This document shows positions 16,749-37,842 of a stretch of DNA of 64,000 nucleotides, piece by piece. Under the pieces are notes generated by a model. The model made no database searches. It saw nothing but the letters and a program-made list of their open reading frames with translations, and had not been told where the DNA came from. The position numbers and the translations under genes are program-made. The DNA is taken from assembly GCF_000184685.1 (NCBI RefSeq), contig NC_014830.1, positions 2,604,001-2,668,000 of the forward strand. Reading direction: 5' to 3'. This DNA comes from Intrasporangium calvum DSM 43043 (lineage in GTDB: Bacteria; Actinomycetota; Actinomycetes; Actinomycetales; Dermatophilaceae). Every line of letters begins with the position of its first letter. The stretch's first letter is position 1.

Positions 16749-16770
<22 letters not shown>
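14896..16770 (+). CDS. bioF-bioD: fused KAPA synthase and dethiobiotin synthetase
   Basis: One uninterrupted 624-codon frame encodes two biotin enzymes. Residues 1-376 are BioF, the PLP-dependent 8-amino-7-oxononanoate synthase: [11 protein letters not shown], Asp200 and His203 in VVDEAHG, PLP lysine 234 in [11 protein letters not shown]. Residues 398-624 are BioD, which makes dethiobiotin from diaminononanoate with CO2 and ATP: P-loop GTDTDVGKT (404-412), [18 protein letters not shown]. The linker (about 377-397) reads [20 protein letters not shown]. No stop separates the domains. An internal GTG at 16090 could start BioD, but no ribosome site precedes it. The linker DNA is a copy of an intergenic inverted repeat seen at 18.65 kb. 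The stop region overlaps the convergent cimA by 22 bases. Confidence 0.92.
16025..16076. repeat. intergenic-type inverted repeat inside the bioF-bioD linker
   Basis: Arms 16025-16045 and 16056-16076 match the arms of the repeat at 18646-18719 (19 of 21 and 18 of 21 bases). Here the repeat is translated in frame as the linker between the two enzymes. Confidence 0.75.
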
Positions 16771-18329
<1,559 letters not shown>

Positions 18330-18410: not shown

Positions 18411-18452
18411 GGGTGTGCTTCGCGGCTCTCCCCCGCTGGTGGCCGGGGAAAC

Positions 18453-18504
18453 AAAAAGACCCCCCGGGTAGGGAGGTCTGCGCGACGAGGGTCTCTCGTC
18501 GCGC
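18453..18504 (-). promoter_or_regulatory. cimA transcription attenuator
   Basis: Minus strand, in order: a hairpin at 18504-18480 (perfect 10-bp stem GCGCGACGAG, 5-base loop), then a terminator at 18479-18453 (stem AGACCTCCC with GGGGGGTCT, loop TACCC, followed by TTTT). The loop plus the next base of the first hairpin (AGACCC) is complementary to GGGTCT of the terminator, which gives a possible alternative pairing. The leader-peptide stop codon overlaps the base of the first hairpin. Confidence 0.75.
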
Positions 18505-18551
18505 TACGTGATAATGAGCGTGCTGGTGGCAGCCCTGAGGAGGTGCGTCAC
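18504..18551 (-). CDS. leader peptide of the cimA attenuator
   Basis: A 15-codon frame, GTG start, reading MTHLLRAATSTLIIT and stopping inside the first attenuator hairpin. The Leu-Ile-Ile-Thr end, using ATT and ATC, suits sensing of isoleucine or leucine charging. The ribosome site is weak, so use of this start is inferred from position and content. Confidence 0.65.
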   Translation of the reverse strand: MTHLLRAATSTLIIT

Positions 18552-18645
18552 GAAGTCATCGTGGCAGCCCGCTCCGTCGCCCGAAACCGCGCGTCCGCAT
18601 GCTGGACCGATGGCGCCCGGCCACGAGACCTTGCCGCGCAGATCC

Positions 18646-18719
18646 GTCGAGTGTGCACTTCCTGCCCCGAGGGCCCGCCCGAGTGTGCACTTCCTGCCGG
18701 CACGAAGTGCACACTCGAC
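18646..18719. repeat. intergenic palindromic repeat, GTGCACTTC family
   Basis: Two direct copies (18646-18666 and 18679-18698, containing GAGTGTGCACTTCCTGCC) followed by an inverted copy (18699-18719). Together they can fold into alternative long hairpins. It lies after the stop of the C26 hydrolase gene and may end its transcription. Related copies are at 43027-43080 and in the bioF-bioD linker. Confidence 0.8.
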
Positions 18720-18739: not shown

Positions 18740-19489
18740 TCAGGTGGGCGGCTCGGCCCGCCCAGCGGCATACGACCTGGCGGCGGCCACCAGCGCCTCG
18801 AAGAGCCGTGGGTCCTCCCCCTCCTCGGGGTGCCACTGGACCGCCAGGCGGAAGAGCGCGGCCGGGTGCTCCATCGCCTCCAGCGTCCCGTCCGGTGCCC
18901 ACGCCGCCGCGACGTAGCCGGGGTGGGTGACGACGGACTGGTGGTGGTAGCTCGGGACGTCGACCTCGGCCCCGAGCAAGCCGGCGAGCCGGGTGCCCGG
19001 CACCGGGTGGACCGGGTGGCTGCCGTAGGTCGCCGGGGCGGGCGAGTGGTCGTCGTGGCCCACCCGCTCGGGAACGTGCTGCTCGAGCGTCCCGCCCACG
19101 GCGACCGCCATCACCTGCATGCCACGACAGATGCCGAGGACCGGCAGGTCGAGTTCTCCGGAGACGTCCGCGATGGCCATCTCGGTCGTGTCGCGGTCTG
19201 GCCGGGAGGCCTGCACCGTGGGGTGGCCCTCAGCCTCGTAGAGCTCCGGAGCCACGTCGGCACCGCCCGAGATGATGACGCCGTCGAGCCGCCGCAGCAG
19301 CTCACGCACCAGCCGATGGTCGTCGTCGGCCGAGTCGAGCCGAGGAGGAATGAGCACCGCGATGCCACCAGCCTGCTCGACCTTGCGCACGTAGGAGTGC
19401 GGGACGAGTGCCGACGGCACGTCGACCCAGTCTCCCCGCGTCGCCCGCTCGACGTACGAGGTGATCCCGATGATCGGCGTGTCCGACAC
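18740..19489 (-). CDS. gamma-glutamyl-gamma-aminobutyrate hydrolase family (PuuD-like)
   Basis: Class I glutamine-amidotransferase-like peptidase C26 of 249 residues that would release glutamate from gamma-glutamyl amines such as gamma-glutamyl-GABA. Visible: GITSYVE at the start, the oxyanion GVIISGGADVAPELY, nucleophile Cys in LGICRGMQVMAVAVGG, and the His/Glu pair in VQWHPEE. It is the last gene of the minus-strand catabolic operon, 11 bases after the SDR gene. A copy of the dispersed motif (18760-18774) forms its last codons (SYAAGRAEP). Together with the PuuA-like ligase and aldehyde dehydrogenase upstream, it points to degradation of putrescine or a related amine. Confidence 0.88.
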   Translation of the reverse strand: MSDTPIIGITSYVERATRGDWVDVPSALVPHSYVRKVEQAGGIAVLIPPRLDSADDDHRLVRELLRRLDGVIISGGADVAPELYEAEGHPTVQASRPDRDTTEMAIADVSGELDLPVLGICRGMQVMAVAVGGTLEQHVPERVGHDDHSPAPATYGSHPVHPVPGTRLAGLLGAEVDVPSYHHQSVVTHPGYVAAAWAPDGTLEAMEHPAALFRLAVQWHPEEGEDPRLFEALVAAARSYAAGRAEPPT

Positions 19490-37672: not shown

Positions 37673-37746
37673 GGTTCTCTCCGGTTCGATCGGCTCGGGT
37701 GCCTGGGGTTTCGGTTCCTGGGGGCGGACCCCCCGTGGGTGGCCAC

Positions 37747-37781
37747 AAAAAAACCCTTCAGTCCTGTGGCGGACGGAAGGG
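37747..37781 (-). terminator. ilvB attenuator terminator
   Basis: Minus strand stem CCCTTC-(C)-GTCC, loop GCCACA, GGAC-(T)-GAAGGG, then seven T. It lies between the leader peptide and the ilvB start. Confidence 0.85.
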
Positions 37782-37815
37782 GAAGCGCGCTGACCGGTGC
37801 TGGCTGGTCGGCGCG

Positions 37816-37842
37816 CTAGGGAAGTACGAGAATTCGGGCCAC
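37816..37842 (-). CDS. ilvB leader peptide
   Basis: GTG-started eight-codon peptide MARILVLP. Its middle is Ile-Leu-Val-Leu coded ATT CTC GTA CTT, three of them codons ending in A or T that are unusual for this GC-rich genome. GTAGGACGGTGGA precedes the start. The terminator hairpin begins 35 bases after its stop. It would stall ribosomes when Ile, Val or Leu tRNAs are uncharged and so prevent termination, as known for ilvB leaders of Corynebacterium. Confidence 0.75.

Follow-up and report, generated by a model that had tools for sequence, protein, structure and literature searches.

The citramalate synthase gene (cimA) of Intrasporangium calvum is preceded by a short leader which most likely functions as a ribosome-mediated transcription attenuator, setting cimA expression according to the supply of charged isoleucyl-tRNA; we place the probability of this reading at about 0.86. 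The switch, which recurs before cimA over a large part of the phylum, would probably turn the isoleucine pathway on when isoleucine is short. The anatomy of the leader, its conservation and covariation, the reading frame, the codon bias and the match between codons and target genes can be read directly from sequence; promoter use, stalling, termination and the direction of control are inferred.

All elements of the cimA leader lie on the minus strand of the window (the whole 64-kb stretch of DNA analysed). The cimA gene occupies positions 16749..18329, with the ATG start judged from homologues, and was identified by a match to TIGR00977 (625 bits, cut-off 450). The leader sits in the 410-nt gap between cimA and a gamma-glutamyl hydrolase-like gene (18740-19489). 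Its open reading frame, VTHLLRAATSTLIIT (18551-18504), comprises 15 codons and a TAG stop at 18506-18504 (GTG ACG CAC CTC CTC AGG GCT GCC ACC AGC ACG CTC ATT ATC ACG TAG), and the C-terminal end of the 15-residue peptide is TLIIT. A locus from the same genus (L004) encodes an almost identical peptide, VTHLLRPATSTLIIT. No Shine-Dalgarno sequence is seen near the GTG; a putative -10 box, CACGAT (18558..18563), lies 6 nt before it, which suggests a leaderless transcript. The predicted sensor codons, ATT ATC (Ile-Ile; 18510..18515), are found one codon before the stop and 5 nt before a perfect 10-bp hairpin, Hp1 (18480..18504; GCGCGACGAG-AGACC-CTCGTCGCGC, loop AGACC), whose 5' end is the G of the stop codon TAG. 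With no gap after Hp1 comes an intrinsic terminator (18449..18479), made of a 9-bp stem, AGACCTCCC-TACCC-GGGGGGTCT (18479-18457), and the U-tract TTTTGTTT, and supported by a pattern scan, by folding and by covariation. The scan returned three matches, all variants of one terminator, where 0.3 were expected. The leader region folds at -47.1 kcal/mol, compared to -32.4 (sd 3.5) for shuffled sequences (z = -4.2; none of 200 shuffles equalled it). The distance from the terminator to the cimA ATG is 120 nt. An intrinsic terminator is thus interposed between the leader frame and the structural gene, the arrangement of an attenuator. The peptide ending in TLIIT, the perfect hairpin and the T-tailed terminator had all been singled out upstream of cimA in a sequence-only reading of this DNA, and each is confirmed here.

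Two further structures were observed in this region. A small extra hairpin occupies part of the leader frame just before the Ile codons (18516-18541, minus strand; e.g. GTGGCCACCGCCAC); judged by eye, it is apparently kept in many Intrasporangiaceae (L005-L032) while its sequence changes. A palindromic repeat, CGAGTGTGCACTTC...GAAGTGCACACTCG, lies at 18648-18717; its 14-mer has 37 exact copies in the genome, frequently arranged in tandem and spaced approximately 33 nt apart, while the reversed control has none.

The leader was then compared across relatives, using cimA loci of the family (135 of 188 genomes matching) and a genome collection that contributed 80 named loci. A terminator within 600 nt upstream of the gene and one to four Ile codons just before a second hairpin were found at 97 of 99 non-redundant cimA loci, from genera that include Terrabacter, Humibacillus, Knoellia, Pedococcus, Janibacter, Nocardioides, Aeromicrobium and Kineosporia. 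The two loci lacking the element are L069, where cimA directly follows another open reading frame (by eye, possibly an aminotransferase gene), and L086, where no leader is visible before cimA. Both hairpins covary strongly. In an alignment of 64 loci (A1), 97.9% of the cells pair, 10 of the 18 pairs vary in both partners, and double changes occupy 103 cells as opposed to 30 +/- 4 in shuffles. A covariance model (R1) trained on 64 of the cimA elements was used to search 297 genomes sampled evenly across the class, 235 of which have cimA; 177 genomes gave a match at E <= 0.01. Among 150 cimA genes from across the class, at least 90 carry a match on the same strand, 33-305 nt upstream, a figure that is a lower bound as it is notably incomplete for the matches of one genus (g79, probably Streptomyces). 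Sixty-five of the class-wide cimA matches served as a second covariation set, lying outside the training of the model yet aligned to it, and yielded 146 double-change cells against 33 +/- 8 in shuffles (the two sets comprise 64 distinct sequences each). R1 also has matches before distant cimA genes in other parts of the phylum, and it did not detect the element in two families that have cimA (f24 and f32). Beyond the named loci, the taxonomic limits of the element are approximate. As judged from these alignments, the element is old and under selection. Within Hp1, the upper pairs covary; at the base, across some 128 distinct sequences (A1 and A2), the GCGC pairs show a single G-U and no other change. 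By this comparison, the base is conserved beyond what the stability of the stem needs.

Translation of the leader is predicted from several features of 174 cimA leaders. In 151, a [T/C]AnnnT box precedes by 6-8 nt an ATG or GTG that is in frame with the Ile codons, the frame being required to stay open as far as these codons; in each of the other two frames, box and start coincide in 2 leaders. Selection of these 174 leaders used an Ile codon near the GCGC as anchor, so the Ile content of this set does not count as evidence. Five loci of the class set were missed by the anchor; inspected by eye, they show Ile codons wherever a leader is visible (L168, L174, L207, L215). Leaders start with GTG (111) or ATG (60) and are mostly 8-17 codons long. 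Most often (130 of 171) a single codon stands between the last Ile codon and the stop, and in Kineosporia, Aeromicrobium and others the frame continues into Hp1. Whether the stop falls before or inside Hp1, the 5-nt spacing between the last Ile codon and the hairpin is maintained (117 of 144 elements; 3-8 nt in the others), and 134 of 144 have a gap of 0-1 nt from Hp1 to the terminator. The Ile codons themselves vary synonymously (ATC 210, ATT 187, ATA 0), with a strong enrichment of the rare ATT: among the named loci, ATT makes up 62 of 171 sensor codons (36%) compared to 16 of 1296 Ile codons (1.2%) in the cimA genes (Fisher p ~1e-47). This enrichment, together with the conservation of codons and spacing in relatives, is the basis for designating ATT ATC as the sensor. 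The conserved codons are Ile only. Conservation of both Ile and Leu codons had been put forward as a check on the attenuator; it holds for Ile, while Leu is not a general sensor. On sequence grounds, then, the leader has the appearance of a translated short frame with codons of the regulated amino acid ahead of a terminator.

The sensor codons change when the target gene changes. Besides cimA, the cimA-trained model matches leaders of ilvB, leuS, leuA and threonine ammonia-lyase (ilvA) genes. Immediately before the stop, ilvB leaders end in LVIP, RLVVG, RLVVT, RVVP, ILVLH, VVVIR or ILVLGKRVG; leuS leaders in LLLT (three genomes), with MRAVRLLLSEPR, identical to a published leuS leader, in one (L221); and a leuA leader in NLLLT. 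Threonine ammonia-lyase leaders have Ile codons (GIT and MIIN); in three genomes of family f24 the match lies upstream of this gene instead of cimA (L213, L214, L218). The same holds for distant members of the phylum, where cimA leaders have three or four Ile codons (FIIIP, AIIIIS, RIIIIR), ilvB leaders have Val, Leu and Ile codons (e.g. LVLIT, ILVVT, VVVFV), and another leuA leader ends in LLLT. Thus, Ile codons precede cimA and ilvA, Val, Leu and Ile codons precede ilvB, and Leu codons precede leuS and leuA. In our view, this swap of sensor codons with the target gene is the strongest argument for amino-acid sensing, as predicted from the sequences. One of the ilvB leaders is in the window itself, approximately 19 kb from the cimA leader and a separate copy (37744..37842, minus strand; ilvB by TIGR00118). 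It consists of GTGGCCCGAATTCTCGTACTTCCCTAG, encoding VARILVLP and stop (37842-37816), a hairpin and a terminator, and is the second-best match of the cimA-trained model in the window (E 1.4e-5). Its codons are almost identical to those of the Streptomyces ilvB leader RILVLGKRVG. Two other matches, with genes identified by eye, are L257, whose leader IVIIR precedes an apparent isopropylmalate dehydrogenase gene, and L243 (VLLIT), close to a prephenate dehydratase-like gene. The proposal of a leader-peptide attenuator for cimA, made initially from this one sequence, therefore gains from comparison on two counts: conservation of the Ile codons, the leaderless start, the hairpins and the Ile-to-Hp1 spacing reaches well outside the genus, and the sensor codons of related elements vary with the downstream gene.

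An RNA of such well-conserved structure, with a hairpin base that is invariant beyond the needs of stability, could instead be a riboswitch that binds a ligand, or a leader that binds a protein, and not be translated. We consider this very improbable: the Hp1 loop is variable and the codons are the sole conserved unpaired block, while synonymous ATT/ATC changes and target-matched sensor codons indicate translation. Neither does any Rfam family reach threshold; searching the whole 64-kb window with Rfam 15 returned two tRNAs alone, and at a low threshold nothing credible appeared at the cimA leader (the top hit being Phe_leader, at 20.8 bits versus a threshold of 55). Equally slim are the chances that the short terminated transcript, predicted by the anatomy to be an RNA of approximately 100 nt, does its work in trans, as a small RNA or peptide, attenuation being of secondary importance or not occurring at all. 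A role in trans is known elsewhere for the leader peptide peTrpL (PMC7298713); in the present case the peptide varies freely towards its N terminus, the Ile codons and the hairpins alone are kept, and the element remains linked to cimA. Least credible of all is that the hairpins merely terminate the upstream operon (gamma-glutamyl hydrolase-like, short-chain dehydrogenase and other genes) and that the short frame arose by chance, since, despite the strong terminator pattern and a gene on the same strand at 18740-19489, the element accompanies cimA across many families in which the upstream frames differ in size, strand and distance, the leader frame, Ile codons and Ile-to-Hp1 spacing are all conserved, and a plain terminator needs neither two hairpins nor a leaderless start.

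The attenuator reading raises the question of how a ribosome would influence the terminator. The sequence AGACCC, in and beside the Hp1 loop, had been proposed to act as a switch by pairing with the complementary terminator arm. The complementarity is real in I. calvum, where pairing with the terminator 3' arm reaches -14.3 kcal/mol, compared to -10.4 for its own shuffled loops, and where the sequence contains a non-conserved 8-bp alternative pairing. It is not conserved: over 144 elements, pairing of the Hp1 interior with its own 3' arm comes to -9.9 kcal/mol, no better than with shuffled loops (-9.8) or with the arms of other species (-10.3), and the switch was discarded. Pairing of the Hp1 interior with the terminator 5' arm, in the same 144 elements, is weaker than in shuffled sequences, giving no conserved interaction. 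A column screen for conserved helices in two clades (38 and 45 sequences) recovered Hp1, the terminator and short register shifts. A match between the start codon and Hp1 (GUGAC:GUCGC) is confined to the Intrasporangiaceae group and absent from Nocardioides, and was not relied on. Overall, no conserved antiterminator was found with these pairing tests, which a degenerate or short-lived one would escape. When the sequence up to 9 nt past the last Ile codon is removed, the terminator still folds in essentially every element. Taken together, these results suggest either that an antiterminator is short-lived or degenerate in sequence, or that the ribosome acts directly. They lower the claim of a classical three-hairpin attenuator; they do not lower that of an isoleucine-responsive one.

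Attenuation at cimA would then probably operate as follows. Transcription would start at or beside the GTG, producing a leaderless mRNA, and as RNA polymerase went on to synthesise Hp1 and the terminator, a ribosome would be translating the 15 leader codons. If isoleucine is ample, the ribosome would get to the stop codon and leave, both hairpins would form and transcription would stop before cimA. With isoleucine short, the ribosome would stall on ATT ATC, 5 nt before Hp1, and cover the invariant base of the 5' arm; Hp1 would not fully close, and the polymerase would read through into cimA. A ribosome so stalled is expected to lie over the first 5-7 nt or so of the Hp1 5' arm, where the basal GCGC represents the pairs that essentially never change. 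This direction of control (read-through upon starvation, termination in fed cells) is modelled on the known ilvB cases. One feature counts against the model: in this leader the stop comes after a single codon beyond the last Ile codon, which leaves little distance between a stalled and a terminating ribosome. In the enterobacterial trp, ilv and thr attenuators, it is likewise ribosome stalling at sensor codons that decides termination, and these systems possess both a defined antiterminator and a Shine-Dalgarno sequence; the cimA leader would share the stalling logic and differs on the latter two points. A more general proposal, which we regard as rather doubtful, is that the cimA, ilvA, ilvB, leuS and leuA leaders form a phylum-wide family of minimal branched-chain attenuators that dispense with an RNA antiterminator, the stalled ribosome itself preventing termination. 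In such a variant the ribosome would hold Hp1 open or stay coupled to RNA polymerase.

Upstream of the leader, a CAGCATGCGGAC box (18593..18604, minus strand), centred approximately 47 nt from the leader start, is a candidate operator. Among 42 leaders from close relatives (L001-L055), 36 have a TGCGGAC-like box ahead of the leader start, and in 32 cases the box lies at -49/-50; it is absent from Nocardioides and from the wider class. The related CCAC-AT-SCGGAC pattern has 12 exact sites in the genome. Five open reading frames near five other sites include those for PEP carboxykinase, valS and a glycosyltransferase-like protein, two being without a family. The idea that the box is an LtbR/NdgR operator for branched-chain genes was dropped, as no leucine regulon emerged among these five; the CCACnATSCGGAC-like sequence is a possible operator of some regulator.

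The closest relatives of the cimA leader in the literature are those of ilvB. Leaders of this general type were predicted (PMC1262725), probed and tested with reporters (PMC10272879) and mutated (PMC11857589), and attenuation of ilvB by comparable leaders has experimental support in Corynebacterium (PMC10272879, PMC11857589) and in M. tuberculosis (PMC13236596). The ilvB-II/ilvBNC element of Corynebacterium resembles the cimA leader in having a frame with branched-chain codons, a hairpin, P1, that overlaps or follows the frame, and then an intrinsic terminator; in C. glutamicum the peptide is made without a ribosome binding site, and a reporter is repressed in rich medium (PMC10272879, PMC11857589). 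Unlike the cimA leader, ilvB-II is defined by its position upstream of ilvB, has Ile, Leu and Val codons, and has a proposed antiterminator formed by the P1 loop or flank and the terminator base. The cimA leaders precede cimA, have Ile codons only in a frame that usually ends before Hp1, and show no conserved antiterminator. In M. tuberculosis, ilvB1 has an upstream frame with LVVI followed by a terminator and is induced when branched-chain amino acids are short, and replacing LVVI by AAAA results in low, unresponsive expression (PMC13236596); it differs in gene and codons, and a competing antiterminator is predicted for it. A result of the opposite sign comes from Streptomyces coelicolor, where codon changes in the ilvB leader were without effect on regulation (reported in PMC1262725), which counts against the stalling model.

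RNA-seq of Streptomyces lividans gave a list of eight leader peptides (PMC8079986). That work and Seliverstov et al. 2005 (PMC1262725) have ilvB and leuS leader peptides with terminators in common with our set, the leaders being leaderless in S. lividans; the leuA LEU element of the same two entries is described there as a pseudoknot without a terminator, unlike the cimA leader. Neither cimA nor citramalate is mentioned in PMC8079986 as far as searched, cimA is not named in the portions of PMC1262725 searched, and a 50-genome survey makes no mention of it. No published cimA attenuator was found in the open-access literature, and an earlier description may exist elsewhere. The sequence-only reading had named none for cimA either, in agreement with the literature and with Rfam. 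Pending such a description, the cimA leader appears, from sequence comparison, to be a previously undescribed cimA case of a known attenuator type that no Rfam family fits.

If this assignment is correct, the committed step of the citramalate route to isoleucine joins the genes under leader-peptide control. The data suggest a coordinated set of leaders in Actinomycetota, with sensor codons matched gene by gene, which offers natural comparisons for the study of codon sensing; the reported codon insensitivity of the S. coelicolor ilvB leader makes a test of such sensing worthwhile. The missing antiterminator, combined with an invariant hairpin base beside the sensor codons, poses a specific mechanistic question.
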